Shown here piece by piece: positions 28,656 through 53,344 of a stretch of DNA of 61,280 nt (the first letter of the stretch is position 1; the number at the start of each line of letters is the position of its first letter). A model generated the notes under the pieces. That model searched no databases. It was not told the origin of the DNA and saw nothing but the letters and a program-made list of their open reading frames with translations. Origin of the DNA: Kiritimatiellia bacterium (GTDB taxonomy: Bacteria > Verrucomicrobiota > Kiritimatiellia > RFP12 > UBA1067); contig JAFWKK010000056.1 in the NCBI GenBank assembly GCA_017514235.1, forward strand, positions 1 through 61,280, written 5' to 3'. The position numbers were made by a program, and so were the translations under genes.

Positions 28656-28684
28656 TTGACGCCATTGGGCATATTGGGTATAAT
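28656..28684 (+). promoter_or_regulatory. Promoter of regulator-surface protein module 1
   Basis: TTGACG (28656-28661) and TATAAT (28679-28684) have a 17-base spacer. This is the best-matching promoter in the window. The -10 context is TTGGGTATAATACGT. The expected start near 28691 leaves a short leader containing AGAGG (28702-28706). Confidence 0.75.
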
Positions 28685-28713
28685 ACGTCTCGTTTTCTGG
28701 CAGAGGCATGCGC

Positions 28714-29865
28714 ATGGTTCAGCGGAACATACCGTTTTCCGTCAGCCGCAACGACGGACGGCCCTTGGTCGCCCAGGTGGCCGACGGCCTCAGGCAGGCC
28801 ATCGTCGCCGGGTTCTACAGGCCCGGCGACGTGGTTCCGCCGTCGCGCGACCTTGCGCCGAAGCTGGGCGTCAGCCGCATCGTGACGAAGGCGGCGCTTG
28901 CGCAGCTGTCGGCGGAAGGGCTGGTCGTGGCGCGCCCGCGCATCGGGACGGTCGTGCGCGACCGGAACGTGAAGCAATGGAAGGGGCGCGTGATTTTCGC
29001 CTGCCCGGAAGGTGACGAGAACTACGCGCAGACTGTTCTTGCCGGGACGCTGCGGAACAGGCTCACGGAGGCAGGGTATCTCTTTACGCAGGTCTGCCTG
29101 CCGCAGAAGGCGCGGGACAGGTACGACTTCGCGCGACTGGACGCGGCGCTGTCGCAGTCGGCGGACATGATCGTGACGATGTTCGCGCGTCCGCACATCC
29201 TCTCCCGCCTCTCGCGCCAGAAGGTCCCGTTTGCCGTGTTCGGGGAGTATGCGAAGGCACCGCGCCCTGCGGTCGGCGGCACATGGCTCAACTTCAACCT
29301 CGCGGCAGGCGAATTCGCGGCGGCGTGCAAGGCCAACGGGATCAGGAACGTCGTGGAGTTCTGCTACTGCGCCATGTGCGACGTGGCGCCGGCGCTCCGC
29401 AAGGTCGGCATAGGCATCAAGAAGATTCAGGTGCCTCCCAACAGATTGGACAGTTCCTTGATCAACGTGAAGCGCATGGGAATGGAGATATTCGGACGGC
29501 TCATCGCCAAGAAGCAGATTTCACGCGATACGGTCTATTTCTTTGCCGACGACTATTTGGCGAGTGGGGCGCTGACGGCGCTTTCGTATGCAGGACTTCG
29601 CTCGCCCGAGGATGTTCGCATCGTGACCTTCGCCAATAAGCGGCTTGGCCCGGCCTATCCACGTGAGCTTTCGCGCATGGAGTTCGATGCGCATAAGGCC
29701 GGTGACGTTCTTGCCGACGCCGTGCTGGAGTGTCTCAAAGGCGGCAAGTATCCATCGGGATCGGTCGTCGGCCCTGTCTGGGTCGCAGGCGAGACGATGG
29801 GTGCGCCGCTGTGGATTCAAGGCAAAGCTAAATCTGCAAAAGCAAAGGGAGGAAGAAAAAGATGA
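28714..29865 (+). CDS. GntR-HTH/LacI-sensor transcriptional regulator, module 1
   Basis: The protein of about 383 residues begins with a GntR winged helix-turn-helix (residues 10-75: LVAQVADGLRQAIVAGFYRP, then PSRDLAPKLGVSRIVTKAAL). A LacI/GalR-type ligand domain follows, with VYFFADDYLASGALTALSYA and RSPEDVRIVTFANKR. Such proteins repress or activate adjacent sugar genes when a saccharide binds. The ATG at 28714 is spaced correctly from AGAGG; another ATG six bases earlier is too close. Its stop overlaps the start of the LamG protein gene (ATGA), so the two are co-translated. It is the most divergent of the three such regulators in the window. Confidence 0.85.
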   Translation: MVQRNIPFSVSRNDGRPLVAQVADGLRQAIVAGFYRPGDVVPPSRDLAPKLGVSRIVTKAALAQLSAEGLVVARPRIGTVVRDRNVKQWKGRVIFACPEGDENYAQTVLAGTLRNRLTEAGYLFTQVCLPQKARDRYDFARLDAALSQSADMIVTMFARPHILSRLSRQKVPFAVFGEYAKAPRPAVGGTWLNFNLAAGEFAAACKANGIRNVVEFCYCAMCDVAPALRKVGIGIKKIQVPPNRLDSSLINVKRMGMEIFGRLIAKKQISRDTVYFFADDYLASGALTALSYAGLRSPEDVRIVTFANKRLGPAYPRELSRMEFDAHKAGDVLADAVLECLKGGKYPSGSVVGPVWVAGETMGAPLWIQGKAKSAKAKGGRKR

Positions 29866-31661
29866 AAGCGAGCAATACGGTCAAGCTGGCGGCGTTCGCC
29901 TGTGCAACATTATGCGGCATCTTGCTGGCTAAGGCAGGGGATGTCTTCTCGGACGCAGTCTCGTGGCATCGCGGATTCGTCGGGAGCGGCGCGTTCGTCA
30001 GCGGTTCGACCACGCAGTTCCCGGAATGCCTGAAGCTCGGCGACACATCAGACGCCAGCCATGCCGTTGCGGTGAGTGGCTACAACAAGGCTGACGCCAA
30101 CCAGATCACGCTCCGCTCTGAGCGCGTCATCTACCCCTACGCCAACGTGACGAACGACGAGACCGTGGGCTACTTCCAGCAGAAGGTCATCCAGAACGGG
30201 AACTACTGCGCCATCTACTCCTCGGTTCTTAAGCCATACGAGCCATTTGTGGTCTCGAACGCGAACGAGTACACGTTCTTCGTCCGATTCCGCTGGGACG
30301 GGCCGATTGCCCAATGGAACACGAGCAAAGTGACGAACCTCGTAGGACAGGCATACATTTTCAATGCCGACTACAATTATAACGGGAAATGCGGGATGAT
30401 GCTTGGGATGTACAGCAGTGGAGGCCTTCATTGGAACGCCGGGCAAAACTACGGTGGACTTGGTTTTACCGTGGCGACGAACAAATGGGCGGACTGTGCC
30501 ATCGTGGTAAAAAATGGACTCCTGAATGCGTATTTCTGCCAGGAGGGCGGCCTTCTCCAGACCAACAGCGTTTCGCTCCCGGCAGGCGCACTGAGTACGC
30601 CGACAGCCCCAGAACTTCGCCTCGGTGGACTGAAGGGGGAGAAATACACGAACATCCCGCTCAACAATGGAGACGGCGACGGCGATGCGTGGAAGGCGTT
30701 CCGCGGCAGCATTCATTCGTTCGCGTCGTGGCCGCGTGCGCTGAGCGCGGACGAGGTGCGTCAGGTGTTTGCGTGGCCGAAGACTGATCTGGTGAGGCTC
30801 GGGACGGTCAACGGCAGTTCGCTGGAGTTTGCGGGCGGCACGTCGTCGGCGACGACGGCCGGTGCGCAGACGGATCACGCGCTGATGCCGGCAACGCTCA
30901 CGGCGGAACATCCGTCCGTTACGATTTCCTTCGACGTGCCGGCACAGGACGTTGGGCTTGGTCAGGTGCTGCGCGTGACGGCGACTGGCGGCGGGCAGAT
31001 GGCGGTGAGTGCGTCGGTCAACGGCGCGGCGGCGGGTGCCATGTCCCTTCGGACGGGCCAGACGGAACTTCTGTTCCTGAAGGGCGAGCTGTTCAATGCA
31101 GGTGCGAACACGATCACGCTGACGCGCACGGCATCGACGGGCGACGTCGCCTTTGACGCGATTGCGCTTGGCGGCGGCTTCCAGCTCGGCAACCAAGACA
31201 ATAGCGAGACATCTGATTTCTCCGACACCAATGCCAGCTATCTGCACTACTATGCCACAGACGGCAACTGGAAACACGTGATGGGACGTATCATGGGGAT
31301 CAACGAATCACACAACTACCGCAAGACGCGTCTTCACGTGTACATACCGGACGAGGTTGCAGGGAATGCCAGCTATTCCGTCAGATTCTCGTTCCGTGTG
31401 AAAGTTCAGGATGGACCTTCCGGTCAGCCGGTTGGCGTTTACCTGAACGGAGCCGAGACGCCCCTGCTATCGAAACCTGTCGCGAGCGGAGCATGGCGCG
31501 AGTTCAAGTGCAAGGTTTCGGCCGAGAACCTTTTGGCGGGCGACAACGCCTTTGTAATCGCGAACGACTATCCCTGCGACACGTACACGGGGCTGTTCGG
31601 ATTCGACTGCTTCCGCTTCGAGACGGTCTTCAACAACGGACTCACGTTCGTCATCCGCTGA
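29862..31661 (+). CDS. Secreted LamG-like surface protein, module 1
   Basis: The 599-residue protein carries a signal peptide (MKASNTVKLAAFACATLCGI, cut near AKA-GD). A concanavalin/LamG-like domain spans about 80-305, with NEYTFFVRFRWDGPI, FTVATNKWADCAIVVKN, AYFCQEGG and GSIHSFASWPRALSADEV. Two further beta-sandwich regions follow. The C-terminus is VFNNGLTFVIR, the seven-residue G-x-x-hydrophobic pattern shared with three other secreted proteins here. A strong GGAGG precedes the ATG. No catalytic motif is visible; binding of glycan at the cell surface is the simplest reading. It stands between its regulator and a DUF4838 gene. Confidence 0.7.
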   Translation: MKASNTVKLAAFACATLCGILLAKAGDVFSDAVSWHRGFVGSGAFVSGSTTQFPECLKLGDTSDASHAVAVSGYNKADANQITLRSERVIYPYANVTNDETVGYFQQKVIQNGNYCAIYSSVLKPYEPFVVSNANEYTFFVRFRWDGPIAQWNTSKVTNLVGQAYIFNADYNYNGKCGMMLGMYSSGGLHWNAGQNYGGLGFTVATNKWADCAIVVKNGLLNAYFCQEGGLLQTNSVSLPAGALSTPTAPELRLGGLKGEKYTNIPLNNGDGDGDAWKAFRGSIHSFASWPRALSADEVRQVFAWPKTDLVRLGTVNGSSLEFAGGTSSATTAGAQTDHALMPATLTAEHPSVTISFDVPAQDVGLGQVLRVTATGGGQMAVSASVNGAAAGAMSLRTGQTELLFLKGELFNAGANTITLTRTASTGDVAFDAIALGGGFQLGNQDNSETSDFSDTNASYLHYYATDGNWKHVMGRIMGINESHNYRKTRLHVYIPDEVAGNASYSVRFSFRVKVQDGPSGQPVGVYLNGAETPLLSKPVASGAWREFKCKVSAENLLAGDNAFVIANDYPCDTYTGLFGFDCFRFETVFNNGLTFVIR

Positions 31662-31670
31662 TTGCGTGTG

Positions 31671-33953
31671 ATGGTGAGCATGTGGCGTCTTGCATGCCTG
31701 TCGCTGTGCGCGGCTGTTGCTGTTTCCGCGCGGGCGGAGCTTGTCCTTGCCGAGCGGGGGCAGGCGGCGGACCGCGCGATCGTCGTGCCGGAGGAAACTG
31801 CGGAGTCGGTGCGCTATGCCGCCGAGGAGCTGCGCGACTTCACGGAGAAGACGGTTGGCGTGAGGCTGCCGATCGTTACGGACGCGGATCCGCTTCCGCC
31901 TAAGGCGATACTGCTTGGGCAGACGCGATATACGCGGGATTCGGCGGGTGACGTCGGTACCGACGGGTTCCGTCTTCTGGCGAGGCCGCCGCACCTGTTC
32001 GTCATGGGCTCGCCGGAACGCGGCGTGCTATACGGCGCGTACGAGCTGCTGGAGCGCTATGCGGGATGCCGCTGGTACGCCTCGTGGCACGCGGTTGTGC
32101 CGAAGCTCGAGAGGCTTGCGGTTCCGGCTGCGCTTGACGTCACGGAGAAGCCGGCGTTCGTCATGCGCGAGCCGCACTGGTACGACGTTCTGAAGCATCC
32201 CGATTTCGCCGCCCGCCTACGCGTCAATGCGCGTTCGTGGTGCCGCACCGAAGCGAAGTACGGCGGCGAACCGTGCCGTTTCGGCGGCGGACTCGACATC
32301 TGCCACACGTTTGAGAAGTTGCTGCCGACGAAGGAGTTTTTCGATACGCATCCCGAATATTTCAGCATGATGGGCGGTCGGCGCGTGAAGGAGAAGACGC
32401 AGCCGTGCCTCACGAATCCAGACGTCCTTCGCATCGTCACGGAACGTGTTCTGGAACGCATAAGAAAAGATCCTGGCGCGCGTTTCTACGGCGTAAGCCA
32501 GAACGACAATACGAAGGGTTGTACATGCCCCGAGTGCAAGGCGGTGGACGACGAGGAGGGGAGCCGTGCCGGAACGCTCGTCCGTTTCCTGAACGCGCTT
32601 GGCGAGGCGGTGGAGAAGGAATTCCCCGACGCCGTCATCGAGACGCTGGCCTACCAGTACACGCGCCGTCCGCCGAAAAAGACCAGGCTCCGGCACAACG
32701 TGGTTCCGTGCCTCTGCACGATCGAATGCGACTTCGCGCAGCCGATCGGCCGCAGCCCGTACCGGCACAACATCGACTTTCTTTCGGATATCAAGGGATG
32801 GTCGGCGCAAACCGACGGCCTGCTCGTCTGGGACTATACGACGGACTTTTCGCACTTCCCGCTGCCGTTCGCCAATGTCCGCTCCCTGCAGGGCAACCTG
32901 CGGCTGTTCCGAGCGAACGGCGCGAGATACGTCTACGAGGAGGGCGACCACAAGGGTCGTCATGCCGACTTCGGCGAGCTGAAGACGTGGTTGCTCGCGA
33001 AGTGGATGTGGAATCCGGACTTGCCGGAAGCCGAGCTTCTTGACGACTTCTTCGCCGGATACTACGGGGCCGGCGCACCGTTCGTCAGGCGTTACTTCGA
33101 GGAGCTTCACCGGCGGCAGGGCGCGTGGTCGGCGAGCGCCGAGAATCCGCTCCTGGTCTTCGACGGGACGGAGAATCCGGCGCTGACCGACAGGTTCCTT
33201 GCTCAGGCGGCGGAATGCTGGGCGCAGGCGGCCAAGGCCGCAAGGGACGATCCGGCATGTTCCTACAACGTCAGGATGGGGTCGTTCTCCGTTGACTATG
33301 CCCGCATCGCGCGAAGCGCGAAACTGGTCAGGTTCACCGAGGCGGGCGCACTTTCGCCGGAAGAGAACCGCGCCCTCGCGCAGTCGCTGCTGGATCGCAT
33401 GGCGGAGGCGGGCGACATACGCCTTTCGCTCGGCAGCGACGCCGTGCGCGTGAAGAGGTGGCGGGCCATCGCCGACGGGTCGTACAGGCCGGCGCCGGTC
33501 GCGGAAGGGAGGGCGGAAGTAGAAGAATGCTATCTTGGCCTGAGCAATCCCGGAAGGCACGGCGAGTTCGTCATCGACCCGTTGGCGGAGGACGGCCGTG
33601 CGCTGAAGCTCTTCAACACGCATTTCGAGTGGTGCGCGACGTTCGGCATGGACAACTGCGCGTTCAGGCCCGGCGTCAGGTATGCGCTGTCGGTCCGGGC
33701 TCGGGCGGAGGTGATTGCGGACGGCGAGGCGTTCTGGGCGGGCGTGTACGACAAGGTCGAGGAACGAGGGCGCGGAGGGATCGAACCGAGGACGAAGGAC
33801 GTGCCTGACGGATACCGCTGGTATGACATAATCACGTGGGAGCCGAAGCGAAGCGAATACCTGTGGATCGGGCCAGGACGTTTCGGCAAGGACGGACGGT
33901 CTGCCGTAAGGGCCGTATGGATCGACAAGATCGCCTTCCGCCCGGTTCCGTAA
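31671..33953 (+). CDS. Secreted DUF4838 protein (GH67/GH20-like fold), module 1
   Basis: The protein of about 760 residues has a signal peptide (MWRLACLSLCAAVAVSARA). An N-terminal GH20b-like alpha/beta domain (about 20-150: AAEELRDFTEKTVGVRLPIV, YGAYELLERYAGCRWY) is followed by DUF4838 (about 165-480). The latter has HPEYFSMMGGRR, FYGVSQNDNTKGCTCPECKA and VWDYTTDFSHFPLPFAN. The C-terminal 150 residues form a beta-sandwich. The fold is related to alpha-glucuronidases and hexosaminidases, but substrate and activity are not established. Start codon choice between 31662 (TTG), 31671 and 31680 is open. It follows the LamG gene directly. A paralog with a lipobox is in module 2. Confidence 0.78.
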   Translation: MVSMWRLACLSLCAAVAVSARAELVLAERGQAADRAIVVPEETAESVRYAAEELRDFTEKTVGVRLPIVTDADPLPPKAILLGQTRYTRDSAGDVGTDGFRLLARPPHLFVMGSPERGVLYGAYELLERYAGCRWYASWHAVVPKLERLAVPAALDVTEKPAFVMREPHWYDVLKHPDFAARLRVNARSWCRTEAKYGGEPCRFGGGLDICHTFEKLLPTKEFFDTHPEYFSMMGGRRVKEKTQPCLTNPDVLRIVTERVLERIRKDPGARFYGVSQNDNTKGCTCPECKAVDDEEGSRAGTLVRFLNALGEAVEKEFPDAVIETLAYQYTRRPPKKTRLRHNVVPCLCTIECDFAQPIGRSPYRHNIDFLSDIKGWSAQTDGLLVWDYTTDFSHFPLPFANVRSLQGNLRLFRANGARYVYEEGDHKGRHADFGELKTWLLAKWMWNPDLPEAELLDDFFAGYYGAGAPFVRRYFEELHRRQGAWSASAENPLLVFDGTENPALTDRFLAQAAECWAQAAKAARDDPACSYNVRMGSFSVDYARIARSAKLVRFTEAGALSPEENRALAQSLLDRMAEAGDIRLSLGSDAVRVKRWRAIADGSYRPAPVAEGRAEVEECYLGLSNPGRHGEFVIDPLAEDGRALKLFNTHFEWCATFGMDNCAFRPGVRYALSVRARAEVIADGEAFWAGVYDKVEERGRGGIEPRTKDVPDGYRWYDIITWEPKRSEYLWIGPGRFGKDGRSAVRAVWIDKIAFRPVP

Positions 33954-38785: not shown

Positions 38786-39883
38786 GTGGAACGGAACGAG
38801 ACATATGTCCTTGATTCTGCGGCGGCTGAGACGCTGACGGAACAGTTGACGGGCAATCTGCGCCGCGCCATCGCCAATGGCGTGTTCAAGCCAGGCGACA
38901 AGCTGCCGGGGGTGCGGCAGATGGCGGAGCTGTGCGGCACGAGCGTCCAGGTGCCGATTGCTGCCATGAAGACGTTGGCGGCGGAGGGGTTCGTGAAGGC
39001 GCGTCCTCGTATCGGCTGCGTTGTGCTGGAAGAGAACCGCAAGGTCTGGCGCGGAAGGGTGCTCATCGTGCATGTGGGCAATCACGCAAACTACAGCCAG
39101 AATGCCTTTGTGAACGAGGTGTCGACCTTGATTGAATCGGAGAACTGGCGTGTTGAACATGTGTTTGTGCCGCGCAAGGAAGGCTTTGGCGACTACATCC
39201 TGGAGTCGCTCCGCAAGAAGCTCACGGAAAAGTTCGATCTTGTGCTGCTGCCGGCTTATGATCAGCCTGTCATTGAGATGGTCAAGAAGAGCGGGATTTC
39301 CTGCATGCTGATCTGGGGCCTGCCCGGAACGATCAGAAGTCGCGTTGACTGCATCATGCTTTACAGCGGCATGCGAAAGGCTTTAATGGATTTTGTGGGC
39401 CATTGTCGAACAAACGGAATCCGGCATATCATCCAGATGTCTTTCGATGATGCAATGCCCACCGACATCCGGCAGCTGCTGCCGAAAGTCATTACGGTGG
39501 AGGATATCATTGTCCGTCCCGAGTTTTCGCCCCTGCGGGTGGAAAGCTTTTCGCGCTGCGCCTATGATGCGCTTGTGGCACGGCTGACGGATCGGCGCAC
39601 GCGGCGTCCTGATCTTATCTACTTCAATGACGACTATCTGGCGCGTGGTGGTTTCTGGGCGTTGGAAAAGGCCGGTCTGCGTGTGCCGGAGGACATCAAG
39701 GTGGTAACGCTCACGAACTATGGAAATGCGCCGTTCTACCCCAAGACGCTGACCCGCATCGAGTGCAATCCCTACCGAAATGCCGCAACTGTCGCCCGCT
39801 TGGCATTGAGGTTCCTGCGAACCCGAAGATTTGCCGGCTCCGTTGTCGAGGATGTCAAATACATCCGCGGCGAGACGTTTTAG
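38786..39883 (+). CDS. GntR-HTH/LacI-sensor transcriptional regulator, module 2
   Basis: The 365-residue protein starts with GTG. Residues 10-75 are a GntR winged helix (LTEQLTGNLRRAIANGVFKP, PGVRQMAELCGTSVQVPI). The rest is a LacI-type effector domain (LIYFNDDYLARGGFWALEKA, RVPEDIKVVTLTNYGN). The HTH-coding segment is nearly identical in DNA to that of the regulator at 47337, while the sensor halves are only moderately alike. The two should therefore read the same operator but respond to different ligands. It is followed after 98 bases by the giant LamG-repeat gene. No in-frame ATG is near, and no Shine-Dalgarno sequence precedes the GTG. Confidence 0.85.
   Translation: MERNETYVLDSAAAETLTEQLTGNLRRAIANGVFKPGDKLPGVRQMAELCGTSVQVPIAAMKTLAAEGFVKARPRIGCVVLEENRKVWRGRVLIVHVGNHANYSQNAFVNEVSTLIESENWRVEHVFVPRKEGFGDYILESLRKKLTEKFDLVLLPAYDQPVIEMVKKSGISCMLIWGLPGTIRSRVDCIMLYSGMRKALMDFVGHCRTNGIRHIIQMSFDDAMPTDIRQLLPKVITVEDIIVRPEFSPLRVESFSRCAYDALVARLTDRRTRRPDLIYFNDDYLARGGFWALEKAGLRVPEDIKVVTLTNYGNAPFYPKTLTRIECNPYRNAATVARLALRFLRTRRFAGSVVEDVKYIRGETF
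38817..38960 (+). repeat. 144-bp near-identical HTH-coding segment, copy 1
   Basis: This segment matches 47392-47535 at 141 of 144 positions by my alignment. The three differences (GCT/GCG and two GGC/GGT codons) are all silent, so about 47 residues are identical. Flanking parts of the two genes are clearly more diverged. Confidence 0.85.
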
Positions 39884-39884
39884 G

Positions 39885-39900
39885 CTGTATACATTGTGCA
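39885..39900 (+). promoter_or_regulatory. Candidate regulator operator, module 2
   Basis: CTGTATACATTGTGCA lies directly after the regulator gene. The same sequence with one change occurs at 48458-48473 in module 3. It contains the palindrome TGTATACA and overlaps TACAT-TGTGC-ATGTA (39890-39904). The rest of the two intergenic regions is less alike. It is a candidate binding site for the two regulators with identical DNA-binding domains. Confidence 0.4.
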
Positions 39901-39946: not shown

Positions 39947-39952
39947 TACAAT
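39947..39952 (+). promoter_or_regulatory. -10 box for the giant LamG-repeat gene
   Basis: GTGATACAATTGC contains TACAAT at 39947-39952, 30 bases before the ATG. A GAGGAG Shine-Dalgarno sequence follows. No good -35 is visible, which fits a promoter that needs an activator. Confidence 0.45.
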
Positions 39953-42900: not shown

Positions 42901-43812
42901 TCGCCACGCCACATCACGCCGGAGAACATGAACGGCAGTGCCGGCATGAAACTGCCAGGTTTCGAAACGTCAGGTGCCTGTGGAGTAAATGAGGCGCATG
43001 TCGTGGTGGCGGACTGGGACGGCGACAGAGGCGTGTTCTTTGGGCAATGGCTCAATCAAGACTACGACTACTACACGCGCAAGGCGGGGTACATGTTCCG
43101 GTCTCCGTACCACAAGTATGGCGGCGCCATCTGCTACGGCAACGTCTATCTGGACGGCAGCAAGTTGACGGTAATGCCGCACGAACAGCCGTTCTCGCGA
43201 TACATCTTCCATCTCGTTTCCATCCAGCCTACGAATACGCTTGATGTCGGCGCGCTTTCGATGGAGCGCAACTGCAATTCGGGCGGCAACCGCATTTGCG
43301 AGTATGTCGGCTACAAGAAGGCTCATTCGCAGGAGGTGTTCGAGTTCATCCAGAAGAAACTCATGACCAAGTGGTTCGGCGCGGTGCGTCCCGACTGGTT
43401 CAGGAACTTCACGACGTTGCGCGCGGCGGAGGGGGCGACGATTGCTGTCAACACCCCTGCGGCTGTCACGGCGGGAGAACTGTCTGGCGGCGGCACGATT
43501 GCGGCACCAGAGGTGAAGGGCGTTTCTTCCATCACGGTAGATGCGGCAGGAACGCCGGTTGCCGTATCCGGCAAAGTGACGCTTGCTGCTTCGGGCGTTG
43601 TGCATGTGCTTGACATGTCTGCTGCCAGTGTGCCGGGGGATTACGCGCTCTTGTCGGCTGATGAAATTGCATTTGCGAATGGTGGGAACGCCGCCAAATG
43701 GTTGCTTGATGCGTCTCCTGTGCGCAGGTCGCATGTATGCATGCTTGTTATGGATGGTCAGACGCTTGTGTTGCGTGTCCAGCCTCGCGGTGCAGCGATG
43801 ATGTTAAAATGA
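39982..43812 (+). CDS. Giant secreted protein with three LamG-like repeats, module 2
   Basis: The 1276-residue protein has a signal peptide near residues 1-31 (APLVQVFMGIVGICLPMISN). Three copies of a roughly 250-residue LamG-like domain begin AWVHLDASD (residue 234), MVWLDATV (563) and AFVRLDASD (879). They end at YLMQKWVKD (474), YLMQKWLGK (789) and KLMTKWFGA (1126). Linkers resemble autotransporter-associated strand repeats (ITKTGGGTLIVDG, IKYGAGTLTLTD). The C-terminal domain resembles that of the module 3 protein and ends PRGAAMMLK, the shared G-x-x-hydrophobic-K tag. No transmembrane anchor, LPXTG or PEP-CTERM helix is present. A cell-surface glycan-binding role is inferred. GAGGAG precedes the ATG. 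Confidence 0.75.
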   Translation: MSKSFKDHVSAPLVQVFMGIVGICLPMISNAVDAVWDSTKPSGAKWVTASNWKDATTGNVLSAAPTTASDTAFIASPTGAEYVIEFDSVNGGNGTMEIAVRKVYSDWMPTLMFGTAANSWTAFYKQTFSVDDPDDFKGFYTAWEGRGCLKLNATQSHVPVASHVDTYGYNWITVPDAGTKAQVRTLFGNGAIRKDGSGDLEVLQGGGWDSRIYVDDGALVLSGSPADHAEPYLPSGAWVHLDASDADSLETYEETYGNNQKRLCVAKWKDCDGGSVYALTNGYHSGATHYMPYSRAPYISSVQSGTGRNLIDFGSQVQEATDESPAYCWMKFSSNCSSVRDVFYAAWCTVSSTNAYKHQVTLLGSSGLGENRDLAGGGRVRIFDTYPGSAPAQHGALTFNGQRVLNQKIWGSRYGSDPSSLHVVGAAFDQNLTFNALSCERNIMYYTGGWRLGELIVYTRELSDDERRAVVRYLMQKWVKDYRPDDVGEVVLHADTASVNVPEGRVARIKSLSAQGAAKITKTGGGTLIVDGISPADAPIDIQGGSVRVTTPLVTTSGPASNPMVWLDATVPSSFVFSNDVNGVATPYIMRWNDRRSEVTTHFAEVPAPDAGTSYWTSNNSKNHLPKTMASASPTGCAAVDFGSCDNGAWMWIQPRDKVDSYAGFVAIRVKNAWTYRFQYFGTSNTDLLSPGWYTKMMIQQNYTTVKGVSLGWAIDGRFVDPWFSHQATYDSTQWRIVSFSGSRAKVRADLLAKYSATGADFLGNVEIGELILFDRPLSWDERRNTEAYLMQKWLGKPHPESAEGVETHDYTFGGNVDEVVDTGASDMVVTNLSGGTGSLIKYGAGTLTLTDMTALTNGTSFVAEEGTLELPLDIPDDAFVRLDASDLSSFTRTYTTDDGAGGLVTNITRWADQVSGREAFSVAENGLSSSYAGASGSCCTNPTLVYAEMPDGSMKPAVDFGGYLNVGTLWTGSPRHITPENMNGSAGMKLPGFETSGACGVNEAHVVVADWDGDRGVFFGQWLNQDYDYYTRKAGYMFRSPYHKYGGAICYGNVYLDGSKLTVMPHEQPFSRYIFHLVSIQPTNTLDVGALSMERNCNSGGNRICEYVGYKKAHSQEVFEFIQKKLMTKWFGAVRPDWFRNFTTLRAAEGATIAVNTPAAVTAGELSGGGTIAAPEVKGVSSITVDAAGTPVAVSGKVTLAASGVVHVLDMSAASVPGDYALLSADEIAFANGGNAAKWLLDASPVRRSHVCMLVMDGQTLVLRVQPRGAAMMLK

Positions 43813-43835: not shown

Positions 43836-45980
43836 ATGTTCAGGCAAAAGAAGAGAATGTTTGCGACATGGCGAATCGCATTGATTGCGACTACCCTGGC
43901 TTTGGTGCTTTCGGGCTGCTCTAAGCAGTTCGAAGTGCGCGGACCGGACGCGCCGAAACCATGGGAGAAGACCGCTGCCGAAGAGCTGACTCATTACCTT
44001 GAGCTATGTGCCGAGGGGCGGCAAGTGGCTGTCGGTTGGCGAAGTGCGGTGTTCCACGTCGGCGACACGGCATTTGCGCGGTCAAAGGGGCTGTCCCCAA
44101 GTTCGTTCAAGGACGAAGAGTGGTGCGTGAAGTCGTTCGGGCGTGACGTGGTGCTCGCGGGTGGCGGAACACGCGGAACGCTCTACGCCGTCTATCACTT
44201 TCTGGAGGATGACTGCGGAGTCAGGTGGTGGATGGATGGCGATGAGGACGTTCCGTCCGCGAAGCCGCTTAAGTTCGACACTCTCGACCGGTGCGGCAAG
44301 CCGTTCTTCCTCTGCCGCAACATCTACCGGTTCAGCACGTCCGACCCGCGCACTGCGATACGCAACCGCCTGAACGACAACGGCGACTCGCCGATTCCGG
44401 CTGAGCTTGGCGGAGCGTTTACATACGGTCCGCCGTACCTCGCGCACACCTGGGACAAGTACCTGCCGTTCGACAAGCACGGCAAGGAGCATCCCGAATG
44501 GTATGCGCTCGTCGGCGGCAAGAGGATTGGCGGACAGAACGTCGCGCAGATGTGCCTGACGTGTCCGGGGCTCACGGACGTATTTTCGCGCTGTCTTGAC
44601 GAGTTCATCGCCAAGGGCGAGGCGGATGCGGGGGCGAAGGGCGTTCCCGCGCCGCGCATCTACGACATCTCGATGAACGACAACATGCGCTTCTGCGAAT
44701 GCACGAACTGCACGGCGGCTACGGCGAAATACGGGCATTCGGGGCGTCAGCTCAACTTCATGAACGCTGTGGTCGAGAGGGCTGCAAAGGAACATCCAGA
44801 CCTGCTCTTCTCCACGTTCGCCTACTACTATTCGGAGCCGCCGCCCTCCAACGGCGTACGCGCGGCGGACAGCGTGGTCGTGCGCCTTTGCAACACGCGG
44901 CAGAACATGGCTGCGAGCATCTTCGACGAGGACAACCGCTTTATGCACGACCAGGTGCTGGAGTGGAACAAGTTCGCCCAGAACCTGTTCGTCTGGGACT
45001 ATGGCATTACGTACGGGAAAGGCAAGGGCTATCCGGTCCCCAACGAGCCGTACATCTTCGAGAAGTTTCGGTTCTACGCCGACAATGGCGTGAAGGGATT
45101 TCTTTTGGAACACGAGGATCCGGGCTGCTCCGACATGTACGAGCTGAAGTACCGGTTGGAGTGCAAGGCGATGGAAGACCCATACCAGGATCCAGGGCCG
45201 ATCATCGCGGATTTCATGTCCCGTTACTATGGCGCCGCAGGCGGCAAGGTACTGGAGGCGCGACGGTTGCTGGATCGACTCCGCCGAGAGCGCAAGGCGT
45301 TCATCACGTGGTTTCCGACGACAGGCGAGTTCAACTTTCTCAACGATGAGGATCTCGTGGAGTTCGAGCGAATGTTTGGCGCGGCGGCGGAATGTGTGAA
45401 AGGCGATGCGAAGCTGGAGAAGCGTGTCGAACGGGCGTATGCCAGCATCCGCCGTCTGACAGAGTTCCGACGCAAGTTTGGCACGAAGCATCCGCCGGAG
45501 AATGGAGTGGCAGACAAGCCGTTCTTTGATTTCCCTGCGCGCGAGAAAGGCTACACCCTCCACGATGGCGACAATGTCGGGTATGTGAAGGATCCAGACT
45601 TTGGCGATCCATTGGAAGGCGGAGAGACGGTTGTGCGCGTCAAGGCGGACGGCGATGCATCATACTATGACCTCCCGTTCGAGCTTGGCGTATATGCCGT
45701 GGCAGACAGGCGCGGCGTCGCGTCGAAGAGGTGGGAGAAGCCGCTCGGTACCGGCTATCGTTGGTACAGTCTTGGGAAGGTGACTCTGCCGGCGCGGAGC
45801 TTCTACTTCTACGCGACGCGCAAGTGGACGACTCAGCTGGCGATAAGCCTGCCCGGAATGAACGGCGGCACGTTTGAGGTCAAGGCGCTTGTCAAGTTCA
45901 CGGGCCCCCGCTTCTTCCCCGGCTCAACCGAACCGGACGAAATCCGCATCGCCCGTGTCATCTACTCGCCGATGGATTAG
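43836..45980 (+). CDS. DUF4838 lipoprotein, module 2
   Basis: The 714-residue protein has a lipoprotein signal with lipobox LSGC (Cys28, after TTLALVLSGC), so it should be membrane-anchored. The N-terminal alpha/beta domain (KTAAEELTHYLELC, GTRGTLYAVYHFLEDDCGVR) is followed by DUF4838 (HPEWYALVGGKR, ISMNDNMRFCECTNCTAA, LFVWDYGITYGKG) and a C-terminal beta-sandwich. It is a paralog of the module 1 protein at 31671, with the same domain order. The fold is related to alpha-glucuronidase and hexosaminidase families, but activity is unknown. It lies 23 bases after the giant LamG gene, so the two are probably co-transcribed. An ATG seven codons in is an alternative start. Confidence 0.8.
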   Translation: MFRQKKRMFATWRIALIATTLALVLSGCSKQFEVRGPDAPKPWEKTAAEELTHYLELCAEGRQVAVGWRSAVFHVGDTAFARSKGLSPSSFKDEEWCVKSFGRDVVLAGGGTRGTLYAVYHFLEDDCGVRWWMDGDEDVPSAKPLKFDTLDRCGKPFFLCRNIYRFSTSDPRTAIRNRLNDNGDSPIPAELGGAFTYGPPYLAHTWDKYLPFDKHGKEHPEWYALVGGKRIGGQNVAQMCLTCPGLTDVFSRCLDEFIAKGEADAGAKGVPAPRIYDISMNDNMRFCECTNCTAATAKYGHSGRQLNFMNAVVERAAKEHPDLLFSTFAYYYSEPPPSNGVRAADSVVVRLCNTRQNMAASIFDEDNRFMHDQVLEWNKFAQNLFVWDYGITYGKGKGYPVPNEPYIFEKFRFYADNGVKGFLLEHEDPGCSDMYELKYRLECKAMEDPYQDPGPIIADFMSRYYGAAGGKVLEARRLLDRLRRERKAFITWFPTTGEFNFLNDEDLVEFERMFGAAAECVKGDAKLEKRVERAYASIRRLTEFRRKFGTKHPPENGVADKPFFDFPAREKGYTLHDGDNVGYVKDPDFGDPLEGGETVVRVKADGDASYYDLPFELGVYAVADRRGVASKRWEKPLGTGYRWYSLGKVTLPARSFYFYATRKWTTQLAISLPGMNGGTFEVKALVKFTGPRFFPGSTEPDEIRIARVIYSPMD

Positions 45981-47336: not shown

Positions 47337-48455
47337 ATGGCAATCAAGGGCAATCTTCCATGTCGGCGACACGCCATTTACAGTTTGGATCCTGCGGCGG
47401 CGGAGACGCTGACGGAACAGTTGACGGGTAATCTGCGCCGCGCCATCGCCAATGGTGTGTTCAAGCCAGGCGACAAGCTGCCGGGGGTGCGGCAGATGGC
47501 GGAGCTGTGCGGCACGAGCGTCCAGGTGCCGATTGACGCCCTCAAGGCACTTGCTAACGAAGGTTTTGTCAAGGCGCGGCCGCGCATCGGTTGCATTGTC
47601 TTGGGCAAGAGCCGAAAGGTGTGGCAGGGGCGCATCCTGATGGTTCACGTGGGGGCGCACTCCAACTACGGGCAGAACGTCTTCTGCGGAGAGGTGGCGT
47701 CTCTGCTCGGCGCGGCGAACTGGCGGGTCGAGCATTTCTACGTGCCGAGACGTGGGCCGGAATATCTCGATCTGAAATCGTTCGCCAAGGCTCTCTCCGA
47801 GAAGTACGACCTTGTGCTGTTGCCGGCGCATGACCCGCCTGTAGTCGGGATTGTGCAGAAAAGCGGTCATCCCTATATGCTTCTTGCGGCGCAGGTCGGC
47901 GAACCGAAGGGCGCAGGGTGCATCGGCAGCATGGCATGGACTGACAGTCAGGCCGTAGCCGACTTTGCGGAGCATTGCCGCGAGGCGGGCGTTCGCCGCG
48001 TTCTCGTGGTGCGGCTTGAAGATTGCTTCTATGCGAATCTCAATAGGCTATCCGATGAAGGCGTCGAGGTCGAATATCTGCACATTGATGGTGAGATGTC
48101 CGACTTGCGTGCGGAAAGCGTTAGTTGCAACGCGTATGAGGCTATCCTGAAAGGGATGGCGGGCAGACGTACGTCACGCCCGGACCTGATCTATTTTGCC
48201 GACGATTATCTTGCGCGAGGTGGCTTATGGGCGTTGGAGCGGCTGGGGCTGCGTGTGTCGGAAGACATCAAGGTAGTCTCCCTCAGCAACTACGGCAATG
48301 CACCATTCTATCCAAAGCCGCTTACGAGGTTCGAGCACAATCATTTCGACTATGCCGCGAAGACGGCGCGGGCGATTCTGCGCTATCTCAGGTCGGGTCA
48401 CCTGCCGGGAACGGTGCTTTGCGCGCTACGCTACGTGCGCGGCGAGACGTTTTGA
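47337..48455 (+). CDS. GntR-HTH/LacI-sensor transcriptional regulator, module 3
   Basis: The 372-residue protein carries the same GntR winged helix as the module 2 regulator (residues 18-65 identical) on a diverged LacI-type effector domain (LIYFADDYLARGGLWALERL, RVSEDIKVVSLSNYGN). Both end in a RGETF motif. About 65-70 percent DNA similarity outside the HTH (my estimate by eye) against 98 percent inside it suggests gene conversion of the DNA-binding part. It should control the downstream beta-solenoid and DUF6259 genes. The ATG at 47337 is four bases from the predicted transcription start and has no Shine-Dalgarno sequence. Confidence 0.85.
   Translation: MAIKGNLPCRRHAIYSLDPAAAETLTEQLTGNLRRAIANGVFKPGDKLPGVRQMAELCGTSVQVPIDALKALANEGFVKARPRIGCIVLGKSRKVWQGRILMVHVGAHSNYGQNVFCGEVASLLGAANWRVEHFYVPRRGPEYLDLKSFAKALSEKYDLVLLPAHDPPVVGIVQKSGHPYMLLAAQVGEPKGAGCIGSMAWTDSQAVADFAEHCREAGVRRVLVVRLEDCFYANLNRLSDEGVEVEYLHIDGEMSDLRAESVSCNAYEAILKGMAGRRTSRPDLIYFADDYLARGGLWALERLGLRVSEDIKVVSLSNYGNAPFYPKPLTRFEHNHFDYAAKTARAILRYLRSGHLPGTVLCALRYVRGETF
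47392..47535 (+). repeat. 144-bp near-identical HTH-coding segment, copy 2
   Basis: Partner of 38817-38960, offset by exactly 8575 bases, same orientation, three silent differences. As a direct repeat within coding sequence it could also recombine to delete everything between, namely module 2 and the ATPase gene. Confidence 0.85.
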
Positions 48456-48457: not shown

Positions 48458-48473
48458 CTGTATAGATTGTGCA
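48458..48473 (+). promoter_or_regulatory. Candidate regulator operator, module 3
   Basis: CTGTATAGATTGTGCA, 15 of 16 identical to 39885-39900, sits just after the regulator stop, in the same place as in module 2. See that entry for the reasoning. Confidence 0.4.
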
Positions 48474-48496
48474 GATGATGAATTTTGAAGTGCGCA

Positions 48497-48525
48497 TTGC
48501 GGGATGCCGACGGCTGTGCTATATT
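48497..48525 (+). promoter_or_regulatory. Promoter of the beta-solenoid protein gene
   Basis: TTGCGG (48497-48502) and TATATT (48520-48525) are 17 bases apart. An AAGGAGGG Shine-Dalgarno sequence (48542-48549) follows and sets the start at the ATG at 48560. Confidence 0.55.
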
Positions 48526-48559
48526 GATTTCAACTTTCTGCAAGGAGGGAGAATGGGCT

Positions 48560-50218
48560 ATGGCAAGGAAAGTTTCAGATAGACGCTTTGGGACGTTCGC
48601 GTTCTGCGGTGCGGCGGTGATGGTCGGAATGTCGGTCTGTGCCGATACTTTCACTTGGCATGGACCGAGCGATATCGTTGGAAGCGGCAACTTCGGGACT
48701 GCCGGAAACTGGTTTGATTCGACAGGAAACCGCACACAGACGATTCCGGGTGCCAGTGACGATGTGAAGTTCACAAACGGGAACGACCTCTGGTCGGTGC
48801 AGACGGTGACGCTTGATGCCGACAGGTCGGTCGCGTCATTGACGGTCGAGGGTGGTAACGTGCGCGCCTTGGGCAAGGTTGCCTATGCGGCCTTGGCTCT
48901 TGACGGACATGCGCTTACAGTGAGCGGGCAGCTGTACATGGAAGGCATACAGGGCTGGGGTTCATACCGGGCAGGTCAATGCAGTGTTCGCGGCGGCACT
49001 CTCAACGTCGGATCTGTTCAGGTCGGGCGTACGGGCGAGTGGGGGCAAGGCTCAGGAACGCTGATTGTGAAGGGTTCGGGCACGACACTGTCCAGTTCAG
49101 GCGAAGTCAAGATTGAGGGGCCGTTCACGAAAATGGAAGTGTCGGACGGCGCTACATTTTCGGGCGGAAAGTTCAGGGTCGCCGGACAGCGCGCCAATCG
49201 TTCGGCGGTTGGCGGCACTGGATTTGAAAGAAGCATAGTTGCAATCTCGAACAGCAACACAAAGGTTACGTTTACCGGTTTCGCCTTGCACCATGATGTT
49301 GACGTGACGATAAGCGACGGAGCATTCGTCAAGGTGACAGGCTGGGGGTATTACAACAATAACTTTTCCGGTTTCTGGGTTGGTAGCCTTGGACGCACTT
49401 TTTATGGCAATTGCATTGGTGGCGCGTGGGGTGGCTATGGGACATCGTGCGGAAACTATGGTTCACTTGTCATCGATAATGCGACATTTGAGTCTGGCGA
49501 CCATTTTGCCGTTGGCTGTTCCCGTGCGGCTTTAGGCGGGGCGGGAGCGACGCTTACGCTTCAGAATGGTGCGAAGTTCTCGTCGGGCGAATTCTTCGTA
49601 GGATTGTCGGGTGATGGTACTGGTCAGAACTCGACCAACAACGTGCTTAACGTTCTCAGCGGTTCGGAGTTGAAAGTCACCGCATTGACTGTCAGCCGAT
49701 ATGGCAATACGTCGTTCTGCAAGATGAACGTAAACAATGCGACTGTCAAGTGCGAAACCCTTAGAATTGGCAGTTATACGTCAAGTGTGCTGAACTCCAA
49801 CGCCTGCATTACGGTGTCGGGCGCGGCACCGGCTATCACGCTTTCGAGTACGTCTGCGACGGCGTTTGAGGTGCGCATGGGTTCGCAGGTGCGCTTCATC
49901 CTGCCGGAAGACGGATTTGTCGCCGCGCCGATTTCGGTCAAGGGCGGCGTTTCGATCGTTGCGGACGAAAACGACTATGCCGTCGATCCCGTAAGGCTTG
50001 TCATTGACGCCAATGCGTTCGGCAGGAAGCATCCAAACGGAACGGCGACTTTGATCGAATGCGCCACGGCATCCGCAGAATCGTTTCAGCGTCTGGCGGA
50101 CAACCTGGTTTTTGTTGATACTCCAGACAGACGCAAGGGAACGGTTTCAGTCGTCGGCGGCACGAAACTCGTCTATGCCGCACCACCGCCGCTTGGCACA
50201 AAGCTCATGATTCGATAA
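48560..50218 (+). CDS. Secreted beta-solenoid, adhesin-like protein, module 3
   Basis: The 552-residue protein has a signal peptide (RFGTFAFCGAAVMVGMSVCA). The mature part is Gly-, Ser-, Thr- and Asn-rich with regular short strands (TLNVGSVQVGRTGEWGQGSG, ATLTLQNGAKFSSGEFFVG), as in autotransporter-like beta-helices. The last 60 residues resemble the end of the module 2 giant protein and close with PPLGTKLMIR, the shared G-x-x-hydrophobic-R tag. No beta-barrel translocator domain is present, so it is not a classical autotransporter. The ATG at 48560 is chosen by the strong Shine-Dalgarno sequence; a longer frame starting at 48485 lacks one. Confidence 0.72.
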   Translation: MARKVSDRRFGTFAFCGAAVMVGMSVCADTFTWHGPSDIVGSGNFGTAGNWFDSTGNRTQTIPGASDDVKFTNGNDLWSVQTVTLDADRSVASLTVEGGNVRALGKVAYAALALDGHALTVSGQLYMEGIQGWGSYRAGQCSVRGGTLNVGSVQVGRTGEWGQGSGTLIVKGSGTTLSSSGEVKIEGPFTKMEVSDGATFSGGKFRVAGQRANRSAVGGTGFERSIVAISNSNTKVTFTGFALHHDVDVTISDGAFVKVTGWGYYNNNFSGFWVGSLGRTFYGNCIGGAWGGYGTSCGNYGSLVIDNATFESGDHFAVGCSRAALGGAGATLTLQNGAKFSSGEFFVGLSGDGTGQNSTNNVLNVLSGSELKVTALTVSRYGNTSFCKMNVNNATVKCETLRIGSYTSSVLNSNACITVSGAAPAITLSSTSATAFEVRMGSQVRFILPEDGFVAAPISVKGGVSIVADENDYAVDPVRLVIDANAFGRKHPNGTATLIECATASAESFQRLADNLVFVDTPDRRKGTVSVVGGTKLVYAAPPPLGTKLMIR

Positions 50219-50257: not shown

Positions 50258-53200
50258 ATGCGCAGATTGATGATGGTGGCAGCATGTTGGGCCGTCGCGC
50301 TGTCGGTTTCGGCAGCAGAGGAGTGGCGGTTCGAGGTCGCGGCGGATGCGCCGAAGGTCGTGTCGTGTCCAGTCGATGCGAGCTGGGCGAAGGGCATGGA
50401 GACGCAAGAGGTAGTCGCTGTCGCAGACGATGGTTCTGCCGTTGCCGTGCCATGGACGCTCGAAACATCTGGGCTGCGTCCTGAATTGGTGTGGGTGGCG
50501 GATGGACGGCAACGCTTTGCATTGCGTGGACGCACTGTGGACGCGTCGCTACCCGAAACCGATCTGGCCGCAGAAACGGTCGGCGATGCGATTGTGGTCA
50601 GCAACTCGTTCTTCTCTCTTCGGCATCCGCTGAACGGCAAGGGCGGCTTCCCGGAGAAGATTCGCTTCGTGCAGAGCGGCGCGGCGGACGACGGACTTTT
50701 CTTCATGGATCAGTTCGTACGCAAGAACGCGTCCGGTGGCGCAGACGCCACGCCAATTCGGTGCAACGGCAGTTCGTCGGCACGGCTTGCCTTCAATTCG
50801 CCGCTTCGCGCCGTTGTCGAAGTCAAGGCAAAGGTCGCCGACATCGAGGCTGTTTATCGCTATATCTATTCGGCATGGTCGCCGCTTGTGCGAGTCGACG
50901 TGCTGTGCTGCCAGGGCGCGGGCAAGGCCTGTTCTGAAGTGTGGACGGCGGGCTTGGGCTGGCCGCGCGAGTCGCCGCGCTATCCCGAATATCTAGCGAA
51001 GGGCAGCGACAGCGCGACGCCGTTTCAGAAGAAGGGCGAGAAAAGCCGAGCGTTTTCGGACCACTGGATTGCGTTTACGGACGGCACGAACGCCGTCGGC
51101 GTTGCATCCGTCTTCGGCGCGGTAGGCTGGGATGCCTCGTCGTCGTTCGTCTATTATCTTCTCGCCCAGCGCGATGGATGGGACACGATGGCCATGGCTC
51201 GTTCCGCGCTTCTCTATCTTGGTCCTGTGCAGAGCCGCGACTGGTTCGACAGCGCGTTCGCCGGCGTCAGGCCGCAGGTGAAGGTCATGCGCGACAATTT
51301 GCAGTGGGTTCCGACCAGTCCGCTTTACGTTCGCGCAGATGCGACGTTTCTTGAGGGGCGTGGAATCCGTCTCGCTTTCGATTCGGCGGAGCGCGGCTTC
51401 AACTGCATCGGAATCGAGAACCGCGTAAACCATGATCCGGCGGCGTTCTGCCGCGAAGAGCAGGGACAGGCGGCGTTCTGGAAACTGGCGTTCTGGAAAG
51501 ACGGCTCGCCGACTAACGCGCTCGCCATAGACAATCTCGCGCCGTGCAAGAAGTCGGTCGAGTGTATGAAAGACAGATTGGTCTTCAACTGGCGCGGACT
51601 GTCACTCGGCGACGAAATGGGCGTTCTGGACGTGAAGGCGACCGTTGCGCTCACGCAGGGTGGAACGGCGGCTGAATGGCGGATTGCCGTCAAGAATCGC
51701 AGCAATCGGTGGGGACTTGCCGAGACAACCTATCCGCTTCTTCGCAACGTCGTCAAGCCGCTTGAGGCAGACGTCTTGATACCGAAGGGCAACTATTCCG
51801 GACGGCTCGCGAAGTCGTATCAGGCCGGGCAGCAGGTCGGCGGCACGTCGCTTCGGTATCCGACGAGCCTTGGCACGTCGGTTCAGACATGTGCGTACAT
51901 GCTGGGCGGCACGGGGCTTCAGTTGACCGCGCTGGACGGCAAGGGACAGACGAAGTACATAGAAATGCCGGGGTTCGACTTCAGCATCCGCTATCCAAGC
52001 CCAGACCAAGGCGTTCCCGGCACGGCGAACGCGCCGGACTTCGCGGTCGAGACTGCCGCGTTCTCCGGCGACTGGTGGCGGGTCGCGAAGCGCTACCGCG
52101 CCTGGGCGACGCGGCAGAAGTGGGCGGCGAAGGGACCGCTTGCGACGCGCGCCGACTTCAACCGGCAGCTTGGAGATGTCGGCTATTGGATCAAGAGCGA
52201 CTGGAGGCATTCTTCTCCGCAGCAAGTCTCAAACTTCATGGCGCGTGCTATGGCCGAGATGCCTGGCGTTCCGCTCGGTTTCCAGTGGTACTGCTGGCAT
52301 CAGTGCCCGTTCGACAACAACTACCCGGAACTCCTGCCGGAGAAGCCCGGAATGAAGGAGGTCGTTTCGTGGCTCAAGGGGAAGGGCGTTCTTGTGATGC
52401 CCTACATAAACGGACGACTCTGGGACGAGATTCTGCCGAGCCATGCCGCCGCCGTGCCCGCCGCCGTCAAGAACGTGGACGGAACACGCTACGTTGACAA
52501 ATACGGCGGGCACAGGCTTTCGGTGATGTGTCCGACGACGAAGCTGTGGCAAAAGAAGCTGGACGACCTCTGCGACACCATGGAGAACGAGATCGGCGTG
52601 AACGCGCTCTACCTCGACCAGATATCGGCTTCAATGCCTGCGCCCTGCTTCGACCGGACGCACGGGCATCCCCTCGGCGGCGGCTCGCACTGGACGGAAG
52701 GCTACCGCGAGCTGATGAAGACAATCCGCGAAAAGGCGGTCAAGCGCGGCGTTGCGCTCACTTCGGAAAACGCCGCCGAGCCCTACATGGACAGTTTCGA
52801 CGCGCACCTCACATGGTTCGGACACGCCTACGACGACGTGCCCATGCTGCCCGCCGTCTATTCCGGCTACACGGTCTATTTCAGCTGCGTGTCGGACAAG
52901 AGGGATTCGCTCGACTCATACTGCGCCCAGCAGGGAGAAGCCTTCATCTTCGGCTGTCAGCTCGACTGGAATGACCCATGGATTCTCGATGACGCGCACA
53001 GGGAGCATTTCGCTTTCGTGGCACGGCTTGCCAGAGAGCGCATTGCCCACAAGAAGTTCTTGCTCGAAGGCGAGCTTTTGGGTGAACTGCCCACGCCACC
53101 TGGTTTGCCGACGGTTGAAGTGAAATGGAATCGCATCGGAATGTACTACGATTCGACGCGGTTCCGGATGCCCGCCGTGCGCGGCGCTGTGTGGCGCGAT

Positions 53201-53344
53201 TTCACGGGCAAGAGGCAGTACATCGTGCTCGTCAACATCTCCGGCGATACGCAGACATTCGCGTATGGCAAGGGTGTCGCGCAAAAGACCGTCACGATTC
53301 CGCCGCGCAGCGTCATTTCTGAGCTTACGCCTGCGGCAGAGTGA
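50258..53344 (+). CDS. Secreted DUF6259-like glycoside hydrolase, module 3
   Basis: The 1028-residue protein has a signal peptide (RRLMMVAACWAVALSVSA). Residues about 25-650 are beta-sandwich regions, and about 650-930 are a TIM-barrel domain of the DUF6259 type related to clan GH-D enzymes. The barrel contains FQWYCWHQCPFDNNYPELLP, GVLVMPYINGRLWD and NALYLDQIS; the Asp of YLDQ occupies the usual nucleophile strand. A small C-terminal beta domain follows. Substrate is unknown; alpha-linked sugars would fit the clan. An AAGGA sequence precedes the ATG, 39 bases after the beta-solenoid gene. It takes the position filled by DUF4838 proteins in the other two modules. Confidence 0.72.
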   Translation: MRRLMMVAACWAVALSVSAAEEWRFEVAADAPKVVSCPVDASWAKGMETQEVVAVADDGSAVAVPWTLETSGLRPELVWVADGRQRFALRGRTVDASLPETDLAAETVGDAIVVSNSFFSLRHPLNGKGGFPEKIRFVQSGAADDGLFFMDQFVRKNASGGADATPIRCNGSSSARLAFNSPLRAVVEVKAKVADIEAVYRYIYSAWSPLVRVDVLCCQGAGKACSEVWTAGLGWPRESPRYPEYLAKGSDSATPFQKKGEKSRAFSDHWIAFTDGTNAVGVASVFGAVGWDASSSFVYYLLAQRDGWDTMAMARSALLYLGPVQSRDWFDSAFAGVRPQVKVMRDNLQWVPTSPLYVRADATFLEGRGIRLAFDSAERGFNCIGIENRVNHDPAAFCREEQGQAAFWKLAFWKDGSPTNALAIDNLAPCKKSVECMKDRLVFNWRGLSLGDEMGVLDVKATVALTQGGTAAEWRIAVKNRSNRWGLAETTYPLLRNVVKPLEADVLIPKGNYSGRLAKSYQAGQQVGGTSLRYPTSLGTSVQTCAYMLGGTGLQLTALDGKGQTKYIEMPGFDFSIRYPSPDQGVPGTANAPDFAVETAAFSGDWWRVAKRYRAWATRQKWAAKGPLATRADFNRQLGDVGYWIKSDWRHSSPQQVSNFMARAMAEMPGVPLGFQWYCWHQCPFDNNYPELLPEKPGMKEVVSWLKGKGVLVMPYINGRLWDEILPSHAAAVPAAVKNVDGTRYVDKYGGHRLSVMCPTTKLWQKKLDDLCDTMENEIGVNALYLDQISASMPAPCFDRTHGHPLGGGSHWTEGYRELMKTIREKAVKRGVALTSENAAEPYMDSFDAHLTWFGHAYDDVPMLPAVYSGYTVYFSCVSDKRDSLDSYCAQQGEAFIFGCQLDWNDPWILDDAHREHFAFVARLARERIAHKKFLLEGELLGELPTPPGLPTVEVKWNRIGMYYDSTRFRMPAVRGAVWRDFTGKRQYIVLVNISGDTQTFAYGKGVAQKTVTIPPRSVISELTPAAE

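Follow-up and report, generated by a model that had tools for sequence, protein, structure and literature searches.

Regulator-linked cassettes with an exchangeable, C-terminally tagged secreted protein in a Kiritimatiellia bacterium

The 61,280-nucleotide stretch of DNA analyzed here (the window) is the entire contig JAFWKK010000056.1 (C49) of a Kiritimatiellia bacterium, whose 3.96-Mb assembly is 92% complete. The window contains three modules, each consisting of a one-component regulator, a large secreted protein with a shared seven-residue ending (the tag), and an exported protein of the DUF4838 or DUF6259 family (Table 1). In this genome and its relatives, tagged genes follow the regulators, an operator-like element of one regulator clade keeps a fixed distance to the promoter of the tagged gene, and the tagged protein is exchanged, if the assemblies are taken as they stand. 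We consider it reasonably probable that these modules are privately switched glycan cassettes carrying an exchangeable surface protein that is sorted through its C terminus.

The tag comprises the last 7 residues and conforms to the strict pattern G-[TMFLAVI]-x-[ILVFM]-x-[IVLF]-[RKHQN], which was drawn up after the tails had been seen. Using our own gene caller, not a published one, we collected 294 complete genes from 20 stretches around regulators or DUF4838 genes together with the window, and 294 control genes from 20 other 20-kb stretches of the same genome, which were hand-picked and not random. The strict tag ends 22/294 proteins of the first set, where 0.12 would be expected from the frequency of the pattern inside the same proteins, confirming the original prediction that the large proteins share one terminal tag; in the control stretches, 8/294 C termini carry it (0.11 expected). 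Conserved information is limited to the last 7 positions (the pattern positions themselves being fixed by the selection), and nothing earlier stands out. A broader pattern, which also picks up false hits, for instance a DnaX-like cytosolic protein identified by eye at L040 and L151, marks large proteins (median of 762 versus 370 residues) that mostly start with a hydrophobic N terminus (63/79, compared with 425/1027 other proteins).

Many tagged proteins have no recognizable domain. Where one is found, it belongs to PATR or other β-strand repeats, LamG, CBM-like, choice-of-anchor (model Q in 1/29 and 4/34, model C in 1/34 tagged proteins), β-helix, or a few other types. PATR, LamG, and choice-of-anchor folds elsewhere precede anchors. 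In the tagged protein of module 1 and its homologues at loci L187 and L076, the conserved domain ends in FRFE/YVRAE/YVRME, followed by a short linker and then the tag. A small number of carriers, 78 to 94 residues long (L039, L155, and L189; L052 11753 with a variant end), consist approximately of a signal peptide and the tag alone. The tag also takes local forms: position -7 is a glycine in 36/42 tails of the genus versus 6/25 tails of two other families (p=7e-7, any residue being allowed at -7), and the module 1 protein (NGLTFVIR) and its homologue at L187 (QPFTLIVR) each carry the local form. Among the papers listed for Kiritimatiellae or Verrucomicrobia combined with secretion, C-terminal, utilization-locus, PEP-CTERM, or exosortase, none mentions such a tag in its title or at the start of its abstract. 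The tag looks like a C-terminal sorting signal, seemingly an undescribed one.

The tagged genes are linked to a regulator family with 21 strong and 3 weak matches in the genome of the window. At E<=1e-30, this subfamily occurs in 15/40 genomes including this one; 14 of the 25 genomes without it belong to the same genus, and many are incomplete. A strict-tagged gene lies at positions +1 to +3 of 13/20 regulators in the own genome, a count that takes the broken regulator of L038 as two pieces (12/19 if taken once), includes the weak regulator of L051, and leaves out that of L043, whose called start is truncated. The corresponding number for the genus is 12/16. Relatives were sampled in 58 stretches from 13 genomes; in other families of the order, a tagged gene follows at +1 to +3 in 19/30 cases with position -7 relaxed to G, P, or A (a pattern drawn up after these families had been seen) and in 2/30 with the strict pattern. 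The like-for-like control for these counts is gene triplets, not single control genes, and 17/254 triplets contain a tagged gene. Tagged genes lie preferentially downstream of the regulator, being found at +1/+2 in 40/139 versus -1/-2 in 6/135 cases (p=3e-8).

When the four genes downstream of 68 regulators were inspected (7 further regulators being left out for lack of sequence), 16 regulators had both a tagged and a DUF4838/6259 gene, 27 a tagged gene only, 4 a DUF gene only, and 21 neither. DUF4838/6259 genes adjoin a tagged gene in 23/36 cases, and none was found in the control stretches. DUF4838 and DUF6259 proteins are an optional part of the cassette. At L038:14748-15854, a single in-frame TAG interrupts the regulator copy, with the rest of the cassette present, and at L050:7247-19636, an integrase-like gene and a series of prophage-like genes come after the regulator, as judged by eye, where the tagged gene would be expected.

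Comparison of related cassettes demonstrates that the tagged protein changes between conserved neighbors. The counterpart of module 3 at L152 shares all three parts with it (regulator 62%, tagged piece 61%, and enzyme 67% identical) and has a metallo-hydrolase-like gene between tagged gene and enzyme. At L169, from another family, regulator and enzyme are 71 and 77% identical to those of module 3, and the tagged protein is unrelated to that of module 3 and 85% identical to that of L158, a locus of the own genus. The enzyme following this shared tagged protein is a DUF6259 protein at L169 and a DUF4838 protein at L158, the latter being 77% identical to that of module 2. No BLAST match at E<=1e-5 connects the L158/L169 tagged proteins with those of modules 2 and 3. 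Among 27 hand-chosen cassettes, 29 locus pairs have enzymes at least 45% identical, and the tagged proteins match by BLAST in 5 of these pairs, which are not independent of each other. The regulator comparison across these cassettes excludes regulator 2, whose identities were taken from separate alignments. With the assemblies taken at face value, the tagged protein has thus been swapped between a conserved switch with its promoter and a conserved enzyme.

The exchanged tagged protein (L158:11277-13889 and L169:5688-8315) contains internal repeats resembling LamG units. At the DNA level, the two genes are 86.9% identical over 2555 bases, and the alignment stops about 40 bases before the stop codon; the proteins align to the end, with 80-95% identity over the first 700 residues. 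Their tags are PLGFVMLLR in the own genus and SNPFTLIIQ in the other family. A body that moves and a tag that takes the local form would be expected if a local receptor had to recognize the signal.

The regulators fit the AraR type by their domain order, with an N-terminal GntR helix–turn–helix (HTH) and a C-terminal LacI-type sensor, and their PDB profile matches include the arabinose repressor sensor 3tb6. Regulators 2 and 3 share 58% identity, have almost the same HTH, and, together with those of L152, L158, and L169, form the monophyletic clade B (SH-aLRT of 100 by a quick tree method). In all five clade B loci, the gap separating the regulator from the tagged gene contains the element TCTGTATAGATTGTGCAGAT, in this or a variant form, and the distance from the start of this palindrome to the best-scoring -10 is exactly 62 bp in 5/5. 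Across the clade B alignment, identity is 65-100% in the operator, 58-92% in the -10 region, and 22-62% in the middle spacer; L152 and L169 have extra DNA between regulator and palindrome, with the distance to the -10 unchanged. At up to one mismatch, the palindrome pattern occurs at only 2 sites in the own assembly, both in the window.

Activators that contact RNA polymerase usually show such fixed phasing to the -10. We infer such a contact from the 62-bp phasing, which suggests that clade B regulators activate the tagged gene from about -65. Repression from the upstream palindrome by looping or cooperative binding would agree with AraR of Bacillus subtilis, which is a repressor (PMC4218819); the exact phasing to the best -10 in every clade B locus argues against it, and we regard repression as rather unlikely. 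The same source describes for AraR an identical chimeric order of GntR HTH and GalR/LacI sensor, palindromic operators, and a sugar-type sensor (PMC4218819). Unlike AraR, the present regulators occur in many copies within one genome, often beside a tagged gene of their own, and the clade B site keeps one exact promoter distance and has only two copies in the assembly. Module 1 is built differently: its regulator has a near-consensus promoter, the spacer of which contains a repeat-like element. Promoters of this kind precede 32/75 regulators compared with 53/1011 other genes, and similar spacer elements were seen by eye before other regulators of clade A. Because the element lies in the regulator's own promoter, the module 1 regulator looks like a repressor of itself, which a sugar would relieve.

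In the mechanism that we propose, an AraR-like one-component regulator in the cytoplasm would sense a sugar and control its own neighborhood. In module 1, regulator, tagged gene, and enzyme would form one operon governed by this autorepression, and in modules 2 and 3, the palindrome upstream of the extended -10 of the tagged gene would serve activation. The tagged protein, with its LamG, PATR or other β-strand repeats, β-helix, or CBM-like domains, would leave the cytoplasm through Sec, and some machinery may read its final seven residues as a sorting or anchoring signal. At the surface, it would probably bind substrate and cooperate with a hydrolase-like enzyme that is also exported (a DUF4838, DUF6259, or other protein), and it would be the exchangeable part, replaced over evolution between the switch and the enzyme. 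More tentatively, the heptapeptide could be a new sorting signal with a receptor of its own, marking a lineage-specific display pathway in gut Kiritimatiellae, in which socket cassettes with a fixed switch, promoter, and enzyme accept exchanged display proteins and the tag is adapted to the form used by the host lineage.

Several observations weigh against this interpretation. Eight of the 294 control genes are tagged with no AraR-like regulator in their stretch, and 7/20 own regulators have no strict-tagged gene within three genes. A DUF4838/6259 gene lies within four genes of only 20/68 regulators, a minority, and a tagged gene of 43/68, so that the same three genes in every cassette are ruled out; of the co-conservation expected by the original prediction, that of regulator and tagged secreted protein holds in relatives and that of a constant third gene does not. 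The three modules encode no transporter genes, and no receptor or secretion machine for the tag was found. Because module 3 and L152 are orthologous cassettes, the five operator sites amount to fewer than five independent cases. The tagged gene of L152 is interrupted (two frames) and the enzyme of L169 is without its first third, and so decay or misassembly may affect two of the five clade B cassettes; the relatives are metagenome assemblies, in which chimeric contigs are possible. In addition, identity between the L158 and L169 proteins drops to 72% at residues 701-800 and 48% at residues 801-871. This gradual fall toward the C terminus means that their tag difference could be general C-terminal drift, which would be the plainer alternative.

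The tag could also be structural, forming the last β-strand of all-β proteins with no role in sorting, and the modules would then be ordinary sugar-utilization operons. Its residues alternate as in a strand, β-rich proteins predominate among the tagged proteins for which a domain was recognized, no sorting machinery was identified, and the L158/L169 tag difference falls within the generally diverged C-terminal part. However, the same seven residues end proteins without detectable similarity, follow the end of a conserved domain, and differ between homologous proteins of different families in keeping with the local form at -7, and most carriers look exported. We therefore judge a purely structural ending unlikely.

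Alternatively, the tag might be the substrate signal of a known system, either type IX secretion (T9SS) or the exosortase of these genomes, which we consider improbable. An exosortase family protein is present in 29/30 genomes including the own, whose protein exceeds the exosortase subfamily cut-off, the last residue of the tag is basic, and tails resembling PEP motifs, such as LPEPSALVITVR, occur in other families. Similar to PEP-CTERM and choice-of-anchor proteins, the tagged proteins have PATR and choice-of-anchor passengers followed by a putative C-terminal signal. In a distant class member (L257), a giant PATR-repeat protein ends, as judged by eye, in a hydrophobic stretch and a basic cluster of the PEP-CTERM kind, and one in genome G110, which also has AraR-like regulators, ends in SPGALIQIR (L255); the tag may thus take the position that an anchor has in other proteins. 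In contrast to PEP-CTERM signals, the tag is seven residues long and lacks a transmembrane segment, and there are classical PEP-CTERM proteins besides the tagged ones, few of them in the own genome (6 matches at E<=1). Domain models for PEP-CTERM and for the T9SS C-terminal domain (type A/B) matched none of 29 (E<=0.01) and 34 (E<=1) tagged proteins, although one protein of the latter set gave a match at E=0.28 to PepA, a family of PEP-CTERM proteins. The tag as a classical PEP-CTERM signal is ruled out by the missing transmembrane stretch and domain match.

T9SS C termini also end in a strand and a basic residue. They differ from the tagged proteins, which show no conserved domain before the tag. 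A tail of the T9SS type B kind was rejected, as no model matched and the own genome had no match to SprA, in a search that lacked a positive control and is therefore weak, and none at all to PorV. Above the cut-off, PorV was absent from all 59 genomes searched, with a control that rang only below the cut-off; matches below it (E<=0.001) occurred in 9/59. An autotransporter C-terminal β-barrel model was likewise absent from the Pfam matches (E<=0.001) of the 29 and 34 tagged proteins, although PATR repeats were present.

Least probable of all, the tagged proteins might be fast-changing surface antigens or phage- or host-contact proteins under diversifying selection, with a regulator that times their display; this would suit a middle gene that is exchanged as switch and enzyme stay, but not the LamG and CBM-like domains or the carbohydrate-type enzymes and sensors of the sugar type that often accompany these proteins.

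The proposed glycan cassettes would resemble the polysaccharide utilization loci (PULs) of Bacteroidota, built on SusC and SusD, in combining a local sensor, a surface binding protein, and exported enzymes. In contrast to these loci, they are governed by a one-component regulator and lack a transporter gene in the three modules. SusD, whose absence had been pointed out previously, was indeed not found in 25/25 genomes including the own, with a positive Bacteroides control; no search for SusC was made. The tagged protein may replace the Sus binding apparatus, as the original prediction proposed; its underlying observation is sound and its interpretation partly right. The sampled Kiritimatiellae thus lack SusD, and the display and control of glycan-handling proteins are little described in the literature searched. 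A seven-residue tag on many exported proteins would, if true, allow surface proteins to be predicted from their sequence and indicate some export or anchoring machine yet to be described, and exchange of display proteins at a fixed promoter would provide a natural experiment on which part sets specificity.

The genes of the three modules are listed in Table 1. Domains exceed the Pfam cut-offs in all three regulators (GntR, PF00392; Peripla_BP_3, PF13377) and in the third genes (DUF4838 in modules 1 and 2, DUF6259 in module 3), so the modules themselves are real. The labels of LamG and solenoid for the tagged proteins are less firm than originally given: protein 1 has LamG (E=0.003) and CBM-like (E=0.0007) matches below the cut-off, protein 2 has PATR below the cut-off (E=0.0002), and no Pfam family matched protein 3. 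By BLASTP, protein 2 has no meaningful match to proteins 1 and 3, the likeness being confined to the very end. Module 1 is a tight operon; in modules 2 and 3, a promoter-like element separates the regulator from the tagged gene. The start of tagged gene 3 was moved from 48485 to 48560 following the gene caller and the Shine-Dalgarno-like AAGGAGGG upstream, the later start being more likely. Against solved structures, DUF4838 protein 1 gave only insignificant matches (best E=0.077, a ribosomal protein; α-glucuronidase GH115, E=0.12), and the DUF6259 protein gave nothing meaningful by sequence; in the literature searched, DUF4838 occurs in one paper and DUF6259 in none.

Table 1. Features of the three modules in the window
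Feature	Position	Strand	Basis
Promoter-like stretch, module 1: -35 TTGACG, -10 TATAAT, repeat-like element in spacer, putative autorepression site	28656..28684	+	Sequence; role predicted
Regulator 1: GntR HTH and LacI-type sensor, AraR-like, clade A	28714..29865	+	Pfam PF00392, PF13377; tree
Tagged secreted protein 1: weak LamG, CBM-like; C terminus NNGLTFVIR; overlaps regulator stop	29862..31661	+	Pfam, gene caller, tag count
Exported DUF4838 protein 1: GH67N-like N terminus	31671..33953	+	Pfam PF16126, PF03648
Regulator 2: clade B	38786..39883	+	Pfam PF00392, PF13377; tree
Operator-like palindrome (putative), 62 bp before -10 (39947-39952) of tagged gene 2	39885..39900	+	Sequence comparison
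Tagged secreted protein 2: weak PATR; C terminus PRGAAMMLK	39982..43812	+	Pfam, gene caller, tag count
DUF4838 lipoprotein: lipobox LSGC read from sequence	43836..45980	+	Pfam above cut-off
Regulator 3: clade B	47337..48455	+	Pfam PF00392, PF13377; tree
Operator-like palindrome (putative), 62 bp before -10 (48520-48525) of tagged gene 3	48458..48473	+	Sequence comparison
Tagged secreted protein 3: repeat-rich, probably β-solenoid by eye; C terminus PLGTKLMIR	48560..50218	+	Gene caller, tag count
Exported DUF6259 protein: relatives at L152, L169	50258..53344	+	Pfam PF19773

The host of the window is most likely a ruminant-gut member of the Kiritimatiellae. Close relatives of the regulator lie on 3 named contigs, two from "Verrucomicrobia bacterium isolate Tb.RUG.75", in which we take RUG to denote a rumen genome, and one from "Kiritimatiellae bacterium isolate RGIG2398 Goat_Ileum"; the remaining 11 loci were only partial matches from other phyla.

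Between modules 1 and 2, two overlapping frames (36432-37820 and 37555-38763), both without a Pfam match, make up a secreted glycosidase-like gene (36432-38763) that is probably frameshifted or mis-sequenced. Downstream of module 3, TGGTATAAT (53403-53421) is positioned 7 bases before the ATG of the gene 53419-54351 (1 match versus 0 in shuffles), and this spacing suggests leaderless transcription. Upstream of module 1, the minus strand carries a cluster of GH88, KduI/IolB, short-chain dehydrogenase, and EIIC-GAT permease genes (22305-28645) that looks like a pectin/uronate locus, with an AraC-HTH/LacI-sensor regulator (27494-28645) divergent from the GH88-KduI/IolB cluster. Three successive secreted proteins resembling FGE/SUMF1 paralogues are encoded at 18157-21984, one of which was tested and matches Pfam FGE-sulfatase; FGE/SUMF1-like proteins were also seen by eye beside regulators at L039, L041, L043, and L051.

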